From a bacterium (GTDB lineage: Bacteria; Patescibacteriota; Minisyncoccia; UBA6257; UBA9933): a stretch of DNA of 37,290 nucleotides. The position numbers and the translations under genes are program-made. The notes under the pieces are model-generated. The model searched no databases. It saw nothing but the letters and a program-made list of their open reading frames with translations, and was not told the origin of the DNA. Where the stretch lies: NCBI GenBank assembly GCA_021786355.1, contig JAJYNK010000017.1, forward strand, positions 1 through 37,290, in the 5' to 3' direction. This document shows positions 9,277 to 31,513 of the stretch, piece after piece; the first letter of the stretch is position 1; each line of letters opens with the position of its first letter.

Positions 9277-9399
9277 TTACAGCTTCGCTGTGATAATAAT
9301 AGATAAAAGCTCAACTAAAAAGTTTCGCGATATTATTGTTTGGTTTAGCCTCACTCTAAACCCCGCACCAAAAGAAGATATTTCATTCCTTTGGAGCAT
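9277..9399 (-). CDS. Possible 40-aa ORF inside the structured transcript
   Basis: An ATG at 9399 is preceded by an AGGAGG Shine-Dalgarno (9410-9415, 10 bases upstream). The frame encodes 40 residues beginning MLQRNEISSFG and ending ITAKL. There is no recognisable domain. The ribosome site sits in the loop of the long inverted repeat and could be exposed or sequestered by it. It may be chance. Confidence 0.2.
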   Translation of the reverse strand: MLQRNEISSFGAGFRVRLNQTIISRNFLVELLSIIITAKL

Positions 9400-9497
9400 C
9401 AATGTTTACCCTCCTAAACACCATAGCAACAAAGTGAAGTTGATTGCTAAAACTTTTGAATATCTTGCTCCACAATCTTCTATTGGTGCGGGGTAAA
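9358..9497. repeat. Palindromic element, ACCCCGCACC ... GGTGCGGGGT type
   Basis: Terminal inverted repeat of about 22 bases (9358-9379 and 9475-9497) with one gap and one mismatch, enclosing about 95 bases. The minus-strand 5' end reads TTTACCCCGCACC, closely matching the ends of the elements at 21425-21535 and 29928-29983. Confidence 0.7.
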
Positions 9498-15367: not shown

Positions 15368-16018
15368 TTAACGGTTTATGGACGGAATAGAAGGATCTCT
15401 TAATAAAATCTTTTCTTTGACTCTTCCGGGGATAATCAAATCCGGAACCAAAAAAATCACCATAGCGCCTATTATTGACAGAAACCCGACCATGAGAAAC
15501 ACGAAAGGAAAGCCGAAAAAATTCGCCAAAATACCGCTTAACATCGACGCCACAAATGCGGCCAGTCCGACAACCGTGCTGTCCAAAGACCAGTCAAAAG
15601 AAAATCTACTTTTATCCAAATGGCGGGAAAAAATCCCATACCATGACGGCACATACAAAGCCATTGCTACGGCATAAATCGCCTGAACCAAAAAAACATG
15701 CCATAATTTCGTTGAAATCGAAAAAGTGAAGGCCGCCGCCCCTCCCAAAAGAAGCGCCAAAACCAAGGCATAAAAATCATCTTTTTCTCCGTCGTTTTTA
15801 TCAAGATAGTTGGCGACGGGAATTTGAATTATAGATTTAATCAACCAATAAGTCGCGGCGATCAGTCCTACGCTTATAAGCGTTGCCCCGGCGATTTTTT
15901 CTATCACAAAAATCGAAAAAATTGGGCTGATTAAACTCCAACCTCCGATAAAAAACAAATCGGACAAAACCAAAAATTTAACAACTCGGTTAATCGATAT
16001 GTTGAAAGTTATTTTCAT
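15368..16018 (-). CDS. Half-size MFS-like transporter (about 6 TM)
   Basis: A protein of about 216 aa with six predicted membrane helices, resembling one six-helix half of a major facilitator. MFS-like features include the hydrophilic loop NYLDKNDGEKDD after helix 2 (position of motif A) and the repeated AxxLSGxLANFFG helix. Full MFS proteins have 12 helices, so this may work as a homodimer or be a shortened relative. The start is uncertain. The ATG at 16027 lies inside the inverted repeat of the adjoining GIY-YIG cassette. I prefer the ATG three codons later (MKITFNIS), the first base beyond the likely native junction, with GTGTGGG as a weak Shine-Dalgarno supplied by the repeat. Confidence 0.75.
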   Translation of the reverse strand: MKITFNISINRVVKFLVLSDLFFIGGWSLISPIFSIFVIEKIAGATLISVGLIAATYWLIKSIIQIPVANYLDKNDGEKDDFYALVLALLLGGAAAFTFSISTKLWHVFLVQAIYAVAMALYVPSWYGIFSRHLDKSRFSFDWSLDSTVVGLAAFVASMLSGILANFFGFPFVFLMVGFLSIIGAMVIFLVPDLIIPGRVKEKILLRDPSIPSINR

Positions 16019-16315
16019 CCCACACATAATTTACGCCAAAAAAGTATTGCGGAGACGTTCTTTTAGTCGCCGCAAACCTTGAGCGTGCAGTTTTAATGAT
16101 TTTTCTCGGTTAAAAGCATCGACTTTAGATATATAGCCTTCAAAATATATCAACCTCCAAGGTGTTTTATTTTTTGTAGACAAAGAACCCTTCTTGTTAT
16201 GCACTTCTATTCTTTGCTTGAGATTGTTAGTGCAACCAATATACAAATTTTTATCTTTCATTGATTGTAACACGTAAACAAAGTGCATAACAGCGTAAAT
16301 TATGTGTGGGATGAA
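16014..16315. mobile_element. GIY-YIG cassette 1 bounded by a perfect 23-bp inverted repeat
   Basis: The left end ttcatcccacacataatttacgc (16014-16036) and the right end (16293-16315) are exact reverse complements. They enclose only the 85-aa GIY-YIG gene: the stop codon is inside one repeat and the start codon is four bases from the other. The repeat also carries the start region of the downstream MFS gene. The arm word CCCACACATAA occurs alone as a hairpin at 249-274. No target-site duplication is obvious. Interpreted as a minimal mobile or homing cassette. Confidence 0.65.
16031..16288 (-). CDS. Single-domain GIY-YIG endonuclease (URI/UPF0213-like)
   Basis: An 85-aa protein that is one GIY-YIG nuclease domain. 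Residues 3-6 (FVYV) and LYIG near 17 form the GIY and YIG strands, and NNLKQRIEVHN carries the catalytic Arg. The YFEGYISKVDAFNREKSLK helix contains the conserved Glu/Arg/Glu and the end is the usual basic LRRLKERL. Members cut DNA; cellular roles of the standalone type are poorly known. It sits precisely between perfect 23-bp inverted repeats, which also form a long hairpin in the mRNA. It is 45 percent or so like the second GIY-YIG in this window by eye. Confidence 0.9.
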   Translation of the reverse strand: MHFVYVLQSMKDKNLYIGCTNNLKQRIEVHNKKGSLSTKNKTPWRLIYFEGYISKVDAFNREKSLKLHAQGLRRLKERLRNTFLA

Positions 16316-20805: not shown

Positions 20806-21366
20806 TTATATCTTTTGAACTTGCAATGAATCCAATTCGACCGCCGTTTCTCTTCCGAATATCGGCACCATAACTTTTAATTTCCCTTGTTCTTCATCGA
20901 TGGAACTTATTTTGCCTTCATAATCCTTAAACGGGCCGTCGACAATCCTAACCAATTCACCCGTCTGATATTCGATTTTGAATTTTTTCTTTTCTTCGCC
21001 TCTCATTCTGTCCAAAAGAAAATCAACTTCGGACTTAGAAAGCGGAACCGGCTTTGTGGAATCTGCGCCGACAAATCCTGTTACTCTCGGCGTGTTTCTG
21101 ACAACATACCAAGAATCTTCACTCATCACCATATCCACTAAAACATATCCCGGATAAATTTTTTCCTCCGTTTCTCTTCTTTTGCCGTTTTTTATTTTTA
21201 TTTTTTTTTCTTTGGGAACGATAATGCTAAAAATTTTATCCTGCATATCGAGCGATTCCACTCTTTGCTTTAAATAACGCGCCACCGCGTCTTCGTATCC
21301 GGAATAGGTGTGAATGGCGTACCAATGCCTTTCCCCCTTAAATTCGCTTTTTTTATCTTTTTCCAT
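20806..21366 (-). CDS. nusG: Transcription termination/antitermination protein NusG
   Basis: A protein of about 186 aa from the ATG at 21366 ([20 protein letters not shown]). Upstream in-frame ATGs at 21390 and 21411 would start within or next to an intergenic hairpin and are less likely. The NGN domain has [29 protein letters not shown] and [10 protein letters not shown]. The KOW domain has [18 protein letters not shown] and ends DSLQVQKI. NusG binds RNA polymerase and modulates elongation, pausing and coupling to ribosomes. There is no clear Shine-Dalgarno. It lies between secE, across a 180-base palindrome-rich gap, and rplK five bases downstream. Confidence 0.95.
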
Positions 21367-21398
21367 AATTGTTGAAATTTTAGAGCTCATCTGTAGCG

Positions 21399-21421
21399 AA
21401 TAAAATTTCACTACAATTATG
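21399..21421. repeat. Solo palindrome CTGTAGCGAA ... TTTCACTACA
   Basis: Short inverted repeat (tgtag/ctaca outer arms with imperfect AT-rich interior) just upstream of nusG. Its CACTACA/TGTAGTGAAATTT words match the ends of the second GIY-YIG cassette at 21789-22102. Confidence 0.45.
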
Positions 21422-21424
21422 AGA

Positions 21425-21597
21425 ACCCCGCACCTTTTGTAGCATAGATTTATTAATATGTCGATTTTGAGCCGTAGGCGACTTCGTCTTCATGGTTTTG
21501 TATTTGCATAATCTTTGCACCAAAAGGTGCGGGGTAAGGTTTTGTATCTAAATTTTGTCCAGTCAGCTGGCGGATCCAAAATTTAGACAAAGCCCTT
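21425..21597. repeat. Palindromic element between secE and nusG
   Basis: On the minus strand, right at the secE stop, a stem pairs GGGCTTTGT with ACAAAACC, with a nested CTAAATTTTG/CAAAATTTAG stem (about 21537-21597). A second, perfect 15-bp inverted repeat (21425-21439 and 21521-21535, accccgcaccttttg) then encloses about 80 bases. The same two-part design occurs at 29928-30028 after the histidine kinase gene. No gene inside. Confidence 0.75.
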
Positions 21598-21787
21598 ATA
21601 TTTTTAAAACAAAAACTTTAATTAAATATCCGAATATGCCGTCTAAAACTCCCAAAAAAACCATAATAATTATGGAAAATATGATAACCGCAAGCGTCAA
21701 ATTAATCGACTCCTTGCGAGTGGGCCAATTAACCCGCTTGAGCTCTATCCAAGATTCCTGAATATAATTTTTTAAACGGCTGAACAT
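21596..21787 (-). CDS. secE: Preprotein translocase subunit SecE
   Basis: A 63-aa single-pass clamp of the SecYEG channel. It shows the family signature SWIELKRVNWPTRKES at residues 12-27, an amphipathic helix lying on the membrane, followed by one transmembrane helix of about 20 residues (LTLAVIIFSIIIMVFLGVLDG). Length is normal for the short bacterial form. The ATG follows immediately after the end of the GIY-YIG cassette repeat, which supplies a CAGGGA Shine-Dalgarno-like word. It heads the secE-nusG-rplK cluster. Confidence 0.95.
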   Translation of the reverse strand: MFSRLKNYIQESWIELKRVNWPTRKESINLTLAVIIFSIIIMVFLGVLDGIFGYLIKVFVLKI

Positions 21788-21788
21788 T

Positions 21789-22102
21789 CCCTGTAGTGAA
21801 ATTTCAATTTAAATTTTTACTTTTAGAATAGAAATATTCTTTTAGACGACGTTTTAATAAGCGGTTGCCTTGTGTTGTTTTAAAATATTTTTCTCTGCGT
21901 TTAGCGTCATTTTCATTTAAACACGCCTCGTAGTATATACATTTCCACGACTTGTATGGTTTAGTGGAAAAATTTAATCCCTGATTATGTTCTTTTAACC
22001 TTTTAATCAAATCTTTTGTATATCCAACATATACATTACTATTCTTCAAGCCTTCAATTACGTACACATAGAACATAATCAGATTGAAATTCTACTACGG
22101 GG
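21789..22102. mobile_element. GIY-YIG cassette 2 bounded by a 20-bp inverted repeat
   Basis: Left end ccctgtagtgaaatttcaat (21789-21808) and right end attgaaattctactacgggg (22083-22102) are reverse complements at 17 of 20 positions. They enclose only the 90-aa GIY-YIG gene, whose TGA stop lies inside the left repeat and whose ATG is six bases from the right. The cassette lies in the gyrB-secE gap and ends one base before the secE ATG. Same architecture as cassette 1, different repeat sequence. Confidence 0.6.
21804..22076 (-). CDS. Single-domain GIY-YIG endonuclease (URI/UPF0213-like), second copy
   Basis: A 90-aa nuclease domain. FYVYVIEGLKNSNVYVGYT holds the YVY and YVG strands, LIKRLKEHNQG the catalytic Arg, CIYYEACLNENDAKRREKYFK the conserved Tyr/Glu/Arg/Glu helix, and GNRLLKRRLKEY the basic end. 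It is clearly homologous to the gene at 16031-16288 but well diverged, so the two are not a recent duplication. It interrupts what would otherwise be the gyrB to secE junction and is enclosed in its own inverted repeat. Confidence 0.9.
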   Translation of the reverse strand: MFYVYVIEGLKNSNVYVGYTKDLIKRLKEHNQGLNFSTKPYKSWKCIYYEACLNENDAKRREKYFKTTQGNRLLKRRLKEYFYSKSKNLN

Positions 22103-22132
22103 CATTGTGTATTATAAATATGACAAAACGAA

Positions 22133-29868: not shown

Positions 29869-29927
29869 GCCAATGTTGTTTAAATTTACAAGCTCAATGC
29901 GCAGTAAATTTTACCACAACATTGAGC
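29869..29927 (-). promoter_or_regulatory. mutM leader with competing hairpins
   Basis: On the minus strand GCTCAATG can pair with CATTGAGC, while the overlapping CAATGTTGT can instead pair with ACAACATTG, which ends two bases before the ATG. The two folds exclude each other, and the second hides the start region. It resembles an attenuator, but no ligand or terminator is evident. Confidence 0.35.
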
Positions 29928-30028
29928 ACCCAGCACCATTTTTGAAAAATAGAAAATTCTATAGTACAAAAATGGTGCTGGGTAAAGGTTTTGTAATTCC
30001 GACCAAAGCGTCGGAAACAAAGCCCTTT
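29928..30028. repeat. Palindromic element between histidine kinase and mutM genes
   Basis: Directly after the kinase stop the minus strand reads AGGGCTTTGT, a CCGAC/GTCGG hairpin, then ACAAAACCTTT. A perfect 17-bp inverted repeat follows (29928-29944 and 29967-29983, acccagcaccatttttg). This is the same two-part plan as 21425-21597, with G replaced by A in the repeat. Confidence 0.75.
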
Positions 30029-31361
30029 AATATTCCTCCATTATCTGCGCGGTCTTGGAAGGAATCAAACTCCTGTCAGTTGGTAAAGTTATATAAAAAG
30101 TGCTGCCTCGGTTTACTTCCGATTCAACCCAAATTTCTCCGCCATGCGCTTTTACAATATTTTTAGTAATATAAAGGCCTAGTCCAATTCCTTCAGTTAC
30201 CGATTTAACCGCGTTTTCCGCTCGGAAAAACTTAGTAAACAATCTTTGGGCGTCTTTTGCTGGAATTCCTATCCCCGTATCTTTAATGATTATTTGCGCA
30301 AACGGCTGGTTGTTAAGTTTAGTTAATGCAACCGTCACTTGCCCGTTTTCAACATTATATTTTATGGCATTAGTTATCAAATTAGAAAGCACTATCGAAA
30401 GCTTATGCTTATCAGCCGCTACTTTTATTTCTTTTTCTTTAGGTTTTTGAAAAAATAATTTAATGTTTGTTTGTCTTGCTAAATCAATAAATCCTTCGAA
30501 AACTTCGCTTATAAAAGAAATCAAATCAATTTCCTCGAATTGATAATCAAATTTCCCTTCCTCTATTTTAGCGACATCTAATAAATCACTAACATTTTCA
30601 ATTGCTATTTTAGTTGCCGCAAGACCGGATTTTGCAATTTCCATTTGCTCTTTCGACAAATCTTCTTTGCTAAGAGTTTCCCATCCCCAAAGCATGCCGG
30701 TTAACGGAGTCCTTAGTTGATGCGCCGCGATTTCTATAAATTCGCTTTTTGATCTTAAAATCCCCAATTCCCTGGTTCTATCTCTTATCACTTTTACAAA
30801 ACCCAACAAATTCCCTTCAGAATCGATAATTTTACTGGTTGCAACTCTCAAATCATATCTGGGATCTTCAAATGAAAAGTCGGAAACTTGCAATCCAGTA
30901 ACGTCTTCAGATCTCCGCACAACCAAAGGCGCGAGAGACGGAAACAAAATTTGGCATAAAAAAGAAAATCTCCGATCTTTGGCTTTTTCCGGAGTAAAAT
31001 ACTCACCGATTATATCTGCCGCTGAAACGTTAAAAATTTTTTCCGCTGCCTTGTTAAAAATTAGTACCTTAAAATTAGGATCGTAAGCTATAACCGCGTC
31101 ATAAAGATCGGTAATTATATTGCTAAGCTGGGTTTTTTCCACTTTCACCGCTAAATTAACTCGGGCAGATCGAAAGCTGTAAACTAAAATTATAATGACG
31201 CCCAGTATTAAAAGAATTGCCAGATCAAAAAATACCCAACTTTCCGAAAGATAAAAAAACCCCGCGACCAGTGAAAATAACACGAACACAAAAAACAGCC
31301 AGAAAAATCTCATTTCCGGCAAAAATAAAAAACTAGATTTCCTTTTTTTAATTTCCGCCAT
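30027..31361 (-). CDS. Membrane sensor histidine kinase with PAS domain
   Basis: A 444-aa protein. Two adjacent membrane helices (residues about 18-40 and 44-64) have almost no extracellular loop, so sensing is probably within the membrane or in the PAS domain at about 75-195 (LYDAVIAYDPNFKVLIFNKA, ending GFVKVIRDRTRE). The HisKA domain has the phospho-acceptor His in FIEIAAHQLRTPLTGM near 214. The HATPase domain has NLITNAIKYN, DTGIGIPAKD and GIGLGLYITKNIVKAHGGEIWV. No response regulator gene is adjacent, so it is an orphan kinase here. The ATG abuts an intergenic inverted repeat ending CCGGGT. Confidence 0.94.
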   Translation of the reverse strand: MAEIKKRKSSFLFLPEMRFFWLFFVFVLFSLVAGFFYLSESWVFFDLAILLILGVIIILVYSFRSARVNLAVKVEKTQLSNIITDLYDAVIAYDPNFKVLIFNKAAEKIFNVSAADIIGEYFTPEKAKDRRFSFLCQILFPSLAPLVVRRSEDVTGLQVSDFSFEDPRYDLRVATSKIIDSEGNLLGFVKVIRDRTRELGILRSKSEFIEIAAHQLRTPLTGMLWGWETLSKEDLSKEQMEIAKSGLAATKIAIENVSDLLDVAKIEEGKFDYQFEEIDLISFISEVFEGFIDLARQTNIKLFFQKPKEKEIKVAADKHKLSIVLSNLITNAIKYNVENGQVTVALTKLNNQPFAQIIIKDTGIGIPAKDAQRLFTKFFRAENAVKSVTEGIGLGLYITKNIVKAHGGEIWVESEVNRGSTFYITLPTDRSLIPSKTAQIMEEY

Positions 31362-31513
31362 ACCCGGTAGTAGAACAACGATTTATAAATTAAATAATTT
31401 AATTTATTTCGTTTATTTAAATTGGATTTGTTTATTTATAAATATCTTTACATTTTACCCGGTAACAATATTGGTGCCTACTGACGAAATTAATCGTTGT
31501 TTCACTAACCGGG
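31362..31513. repeat. Intergenic element with ACCCGGTAGTAGAACAACGA inverted repeat
   Basis: Left arm at 31362-31386 and right arm at 31492-31513 are reverse complements with a one-base gap and two mismatches. They enclose a very AT-rich centre and a third ACCCGGTAACA word at about 31457. The left arm begins at the base after the kinase ATG. No ORF inside. Confidence 0.65.

Follow-up and report, generated by a model that had tools for sequence, protein, structure and literature searches.

A very small, apparently mobile GIY-YIG nuclease cassette at the start codon of secE

The cassette at secE and its empty site

The window analysed here is a stretch of 37,290 nucleotides in which a 314-bp cassette, with a small GIY-YIG nuclease as its only gene, lies at the start codon of secE. 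The locus comprises the following features.

21596..21787, minus strand: secE, the host gene with the cassette at its start codon (PF00584, 72 bits)
21785..21788, no strand: target site duplication CATT, copy 1, which includes the secE start codon; empty site GAGCATTGTG in G001
21789..22102, minus strand: mobile GIY-YIG cassette, 314 bp, bounded by CATT; absent from G001, where its flanks are joined
21789..21808, no strand: terminal inverted repeat, downstream end CCCTGTAGTGAAATTTCAAT, which holds the nuclease stop codon and matches the other arm at 17 of 20 positions
21804..22076, minus strand: GIY-YIG nuclease ORF, UPF0213/SLX1-like, 90 aa (PF01541, 60.6 bits)
22083..22102, no strand: terminal inverted repeat, upstream end; its reverse complement is CCCCGTAGTAGAATTTCAAT
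22103..22106, no strand: target site duplication CATT, copy 2, from comparison with the G001 empty site

An earlier note on this DNA had placed a diverged 90-aa GIY-YIG gene between 20-base inverted repeats, with its stop codon inside one end and the cassette ending one base before the secE start codon. All of this holds. The PF01541 score is well clear of the cut-off of 22.6 bits, the TGA stop occupies 21804-21806 within the downstream arm, and the ATG of secE occupies 21785-21787. The single base between the ATG and the cassette is part of the CATT target duplication. The note had recognised neither the cassette as an inserted unit with a duplicated target nor that base as belonging to the duplication, and had missed that many non-coding elements have identical ends.

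The insertion was recognised by comparison with G001, a genome of the same genus whose contig C4 runs collinear with the window at ~78-91% identity, depending on the block. Around the cassette site the two sequences are collinear and about 90% identical, with the cassette missing from G001, which reads GAGCATTGTG where the window reads GAACATT-[CCCTGTAG...CTACTACGGGG]-CATTGTG. The inserted unit (21789-22102) is flanked on both sides by the 4-base CATT. On the minus strand this duplication is AATG and includes the secE start codon, and thus secE is intact. Empty sites in G001 correspond to nine of the genome's GIY-YIG cassettes (L001-L005, L007-L009 and L011), the two of the window among them, an empty site being called when the cassette flanks adjoin in G001 without the nuclease gene; L003 was judged from match coordinates. 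Clean 4-bp duplications relative to the G001 empty sites were found for the secE cassette (CATT), L004 (TCAA) and L005 (TTGA). Neighbouring or nested elements make L002, L004 and L007 composite.

Taken singly, the inverted repeat at secE is weak, with an ungapped score of 11 that 2.3% of shuffled flanks and 6.2% of neighbouring genes also reach. It goes beyond chance because of the G001 empty site with its 4-bp duplication and because its end sequence has 35 exact copies in the genome, against 0 for a control pattern. These findings bear out the judgement of the earlier note, drawn from two copies of one architecture, that a chance origin is unlikely. On these comparisons, the cassette itself is almost certainly a mobile unit.

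At L011 (G000:C24), a GIY-YIG gene without clear repeats lies immediately upstream of the tmRNA gene and is missing from G001. One orthologous site carries a GIY-YIG cassette in G001 (L105) and a different non-coding palindrome in G000 (L124), with the same TTGAC adjoining both; the pair would represent either independent insertions or a replacement at one target.

Related elements in the window, the genome and other bacteria

Other elements delimited in the window are the following.

9361..9493, no strand: non-coding element with ends CCCCGCACC / GGTGCGGGG; target site duplication TAAA; absent from G001, which has the empty site CTCTAAACCCC
16014..16315, minus strand: second GIY-YIG cassette of the window, with ORF 16031-16288, directly upstream of an ORF starting at 16020/16027 (minus strand); 16019-16314 absent from G001
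21425..21535, no strand: non-coding palindromic element with ACCCCGCACCTTTTG ends, between nusG and secE; present in G001 too
29875..30025, no strand: non-coding composite element around the palindrome 29928-29983 (CCCAGCACC ends); absent from G001; related to the coding element L007
31363..31513, no strand: non-coding sibling of the secE cassette, with ends CCCGGTAGTAGAA / CCCGGTTAGTGAAA; target site duplication CATA; absent from G001

The arms of the cassette at 16014-16315 (16014-16036 and 16293-16315) are perfect, matching at 23/23 bp. The earlier note had described the two GIY-YIG cassettes of the window as having different ends; their sequences do differ, although an outer CCC/GGG is common to both. 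At 16014-16315 the inverted repeat also runs 5 bp past CCC/GGG (TTCAT/ATGAA) into empty-site sequence, as though an inverted copy of one flank had been made. Part of the element at 29875-30025 is 99% identical to the flank of L007, and the sibling at 31363-31513 sits at the start codon of an ORF (30027-31361, minus strand) that is histidine-kinase-like by eye. The nusG-secE intergenic region (21349-21601) is a composite of three hairpins, of which ~250 bp recur elsewhere in G001 (C8 and C4) at 78-88% identity.

Non-coding copies bearing the cassette ends far outnumber the coding copies, and the genome has dispersed palindromic non-coding units of the kind that characterises REPIN/RAYT systems. 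The 35 exact copies of the secE cassette's end sequence, CCCNGTAGTRRAA, were counted against a reversed control pattern; with one mismatch allowed there are 82 copies, compared with 6 for the control. The copies occur mostly as non-coding inverted pairs, nearly always joining an AGTAGAA end to an AGTGAAA end, which is also the pairing in the coding copy. Of 23 reconstructed CCCNGTAGTRRAA elements, 9 lie between exact 4-bp duplications, in most cases CATA/TATG (1.3 expected, maximum 6), a count in which some overlapping alternative pairings remain. The CCCMGCACCTTTT ends of other cassettes behave alike, with 59 matches against 3 for the control. A separate 81-nt unit with ends CCCCGTAGTGAAT / CCCTGTAGTAGAT occurs in four tandem copies at G000:C7:2207-2526.

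These siblings bear on the reading of the repeats as RNA or transcription-control hairpins of a vertically inherited gene rather than transposon ends. The repeats do hug the ORF, one of them overlapping the stop codon, and the sibling at 31363 folds better than shuffled sequences. Against this, target duplications accompany the gain or loss of repeats and gene as a single unit, identical ends also surround non-coding DNA, and no terminator-like site was detected at the cassette. The hairpin reading is contradicted by the empty sites unless these are precise deletions, and we regard it as extremely improbable. A terminator or RNA gene was likewise rejected, there being neither a terminator-like site at the cassette nor an Rfam match, and no Rfam intron was found in the window at the gathering threshold, which speaks against a group I intron. 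An origin from phage was discarded as well, since a viral collection gave just 4 distant matches.

A survey covered 192 distinct small GIY-YIG ORFs, drawn from the present genome, related genomes and 80 loci in a public genome collection. The loci were picked by similarity to the nucleases of this genome, so the fractions below are not population estimates; related loci are non-independent, and start codons and ORFs were unannotated. Flanking inverted repeats with a score of at least 12 accompany 44.3% of the 192 GIY-YIG ORFs but only 3.5% of 370 neighbouring ORFs, with 0.9% for swapped flanks and 0.4% for dinucleotide shuffles. The enrichment on which the earlier note had staked its case was therefore found, and strong repeats are absent from over half of the 192 ORFs. 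Repeat-bearing cassettes cluster on the nuclease tree, with 31 changes where shuffling gives 61.8 (minimum 51), so that having repeats is a property of lineages with gains or losses. Among 78 tight cassettes, 63 have an outer-end CCC, compared with a background of 9.6%. Across the same 78, repeat similarity tracks nuclease similarity (Mantel r=0.60, 0/2000 permutations), whereas the DNA 8-60 nt outside the repeats hardly does so (r=0.15), in agreement with the earlier suggestion that each nuclease lineage has its own repeat.

The hosts of the cassettes belong mostly to CPR phyla, and also include Omnitrophota, Verrucomicrobiota and two Algoriphagus. The secE cassette is a member of a widespread group of very small mobile DNA elements that is apparently undescribed. 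At L003 (G000:C47, 1430-1820) and L002 (G000:C30), GIY-YIG genes of a second type lie between CATTGCGAG...CGAAGCAATCT and CATCCCGAG palindromes and look like coding partners of that repeat. In L010 (G000:C8:5907-6110), the reading frame of a GIY-YIG domain continues into an apparent signal peptide and secreted protein of 300 aa, which may represent a cassette that has lost its stop codon.

Target sites, the nuclease and a proposed mechanism

Target duplications are not confined to the window. In a set of 60 cassettes with CCC/GGG as the anchor, exact direct repeats of 4 bp adjoin the outer side of the ends in 22 (2.7 expected, maximum 8 in 2000 shuffles), and no excess of direct repeats was seen in the same 60 when the first 5 bases had to match. 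The duplicated word varies with the end family, being TATG or AATG for CCCCGTAG ends and TTGA or TTTA for most CCCCGCACC, CCCCCACACC and CCCCGTT ends. The ATCCCGTTAGAGAT group fits a shorter duplication, in which, as interpreted by eye, the AT of the element and the G of the target rebuild an ATG. The right end lies at most 4 nt from the start codon of an ORF of at least 60 aa in 37% of cases; the corresponding values are 8% for shifted positions and 6.5% where GIY-YIG ORFs lack repeats. Cassettes L112, L202, L231 and L276 each have a right arm that adjoins or overlaps a tRNA gene at its 5' end. The places of insertion are start codons (TATG), tRNA 5' ends and TTGA boxes. In the coding cassettes with TATG, this word and the nuclease gene point the same way; the sibling at 31363-31513, which is non-coding, is in the opposite orientation relative to its gene, so the bias may come from selection for expression and not from insertion itself. 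In the right flanks of L175, L185, L200 and L214, a second element end (TATGCCCCGTA, TTTACCCCGTT) follows immediately after the duplicated target, suggesting repeated insertion at one target.

The genes at these targets are unrelated, including secE and, as judged by their first residues, ParA-like, RNase H-like, primase-like and other genes. This matters for the possibility of free-standing homing, as by the seg endonucleases of phage T4, in which the cassettes would spread through the repair of breaks at short conserved sites and the repeats would be halves of pre-existing palindromes or a later gain. The domain class and the intergenic position are like those of the T4 seg genes (PMC2988022), the orientation of insertion is consistent relative to the downstream gene, and L049, L265 and L273 lie at the start of apparently one metallo-beta-lactamase-like gene. 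Homing would, however, call for one conserved allelic target, and here a single end family precedes many unrelated genes; the ends are also common to non-coding elements, and the T4 review is silent on inverted repeats and target site duplications (PMC2988022). Homing into an existing palindrome was rejected because the G001 empty sites have no palindrome at the insertion point, except at the L105 site, where G000 has the non-coding palindrome L124. We consider this explanation improbable.

The nuclease itself is UPF0213/SLX1-like by both sequence and fold. Its closest solved structures are UPF0213 BH0048 (1zg2) and SLX1 (7cq2-4), followed by I-TevI; the 1zg2 profile matches with E=4e-12, and the best Foldseek match of the predicted structure (pLDDT 89.9) is again 1zg2 (probability 1.00, E=3.2e-3). 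Y5, Y16, R26 and E62, which we take to be the residues expected for GIY-YIG catalysis, are invariant among 19 diverse members, and the residues invariant in relatives also include G18, H30 and K66. Between copies at unrelated sites the median dN/dS is 0.12 (63 non-independent pairs), which points to maintenance of the protein by purifying selection.

It is hypothesized that the cassette is a self-mobile element resembling an insertion sequence, with a GIY-YIG nuclease in place of the transposase, and we consider nuclease-driven mobility rather likely from the sequence comparisons. Each member consists of two terminal inverted repeats, with an outer CCC/GGG and a lineage-specific inner part, around one UPF0213/SLX1-like GIY-YIG gene whose stop overlaps one end. 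The nuclease would recognise its own ends together with a short target at the 5' end of a gene (TATG start codons, tRNA 5' ends or TTGA boxes) and make a staggered cut of about 4 nt; strand joining would insert the element, and gap filling would leave the 4-bp duplication. The duplication restores the start codon or 5' end of the host gene, which therefore survives, with the nuclease gene probably transcribed from the promoter of that gene; a promoter scan at the cassette gave no strong consensus. Non-coding elements with matching ends would probably have been moved in trans, and the family may be active at present.

The main alternative is that an unrelated enzyme acting in trans moves the palindromic elements, with the GIY-YIG gene a passenger in some copies. 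The great numerical excess of non-coding over coding copies would fit a passenger, as would G005, an 84%-complete assembly with 21 arms of the secE cassette's type whose best nuclease match is just 50% identical. GIY-YIG enzymes are known as hydrolytic nucleases and have no known strand-transfer activity. This chemistry and G005 were counted against nuclease-driven movement, together with the weak correlation between arm count and nuclease similarity across genomes (Spearman 0.35; 0.30 without G000 and G057), the lack of strong repeats at over half of the small GIY-YIG ORFs, and the cuts of the relatives I-TevI and SegA, which leave 2-nt overhangs and not 4 (PMC2988022).

Against a passenger stand the co-variation of the ends with the nuclease across genomes, the strong purifying selection on the nuclease and the stop codon built into one end. 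The 93%-complete genome also yielded no Y1 (HUH) transposase (PF01797) match at E<=1 in a search whose positive controls matched, no DDE_Tnp_1 (PF01609) and no rve (PF00665) above the cut-off, these being the three families sought, although the remaining 7% of the genome could hold one. A sub-threshold PF00665 match (E=0.011) is a short frame overlapping a palindrome and was judged to be due to chance. Mobilisation by a RAYT/Y1 enzyme was rejected, as the genome has no Y1 gene. Because of the co-variation, the selection on the protein, the built-in stop codon and the lack of these transposases, the nuclease is the most likely mobiliser, and a passenger gene appears unlikely.

We propose more broadly, and a little more tentatively, that the cassettes are probably a new class of autonomous DNA transposon of ~300 bp, in which a single-domain GIY-YIG nuclease acts as the transposase, targeting of 5' ends restores the start codon, and large sets of non-coding palindromes are driven in CPR and some other bacteria. 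Should the nuclease indeed mobilise the cassette that encodes it, GIY-YIG would be added to the few enzyme folds that drive DNA transposition, and the cassettes would be among the smallest autonomous elements. Such movement would explain many orphan GIY-YIG genes and intergenic palindromes in the small, transposase-poor genomes of CPR. Insertion that rebuilds a start codon would be a gene-sparing entry to a gene-dense genome, combined with borrowing of a promoter, and could serve as a targeting principle. The related cassettes in cultured Algoriphagus, among them L190 in Algoriphagus hitonicola DSM 19315, make nuclease-driven movement testable.

Comparison with known systems

The full-text literature, with subscription papers and preprints outside its scope, gave no description of GIY-YIG elements bounded by inverted repeats, and within the same scope nothing relevant was found on the sequence GTCATTGCGAG or on UPF0213/YhbQ/COG2827. 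UPF0213 and SLX1 proteins, closest to the nuclease among solved structures in both sequence and fold, have been described as proteins of the host, SLX1 cutting branched DNA with SLX4, whereas the cassettes are mobile and multi-copy. In CPR bacteria, GIY-YIG ORFs occur in non-intron insertions of rRNA genes that seemingly did not spread by homing (PMC11270868). Those insertions lie inside the rRNA genes, and the paper makes no mention of inverted repeats; the observation fits our reading of the cassettes.

The T4 genes segA-segG are similar in being small, intron-less GIY-YIG genes between host genes that probably depend on neighbouring promoters, and the cassette shares the nuclease domain of free-standing homing endonucleases. 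Homing of the seg genes, however, is to allelic or neighbouring sites, through recombination that follows a cut leaving a 2-nt 3' overhang, and the genes are reviewed without mention of inverted ends, target duplications or non-coding derivatives (PMC2988022), whereas the cassettes have all three.

REP/REPIN sequences with their RAYTs are also similar, with many short palindromic non-coding units and few coding copies, and a GTAG motif occurs in one end family of the cassettes. RAYTs, however, carry a Y1 HUH domain, and Y1 is absent from this genome. The cassettes have target duplications, whereas IS200/RAYT-type movement is not known to make any.

Insertion sequences with their MITEs share terminal inverted repeats, short target duplications, empty sites and non-coding derivatives with matching ends. 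They differ in that the sole gene of the cassette is a GIY-YIG nuclease of ~85 aa in a total of ~300 bp, with no DDE, HUH, serine or tyrosine transposase; the 90-aa ORF at secE belongs to no known transposase class. The element fits the structural definition of an insertion sequence while lacking its transposase, and it departs from both RAYT systems and allelic homing in their key features.
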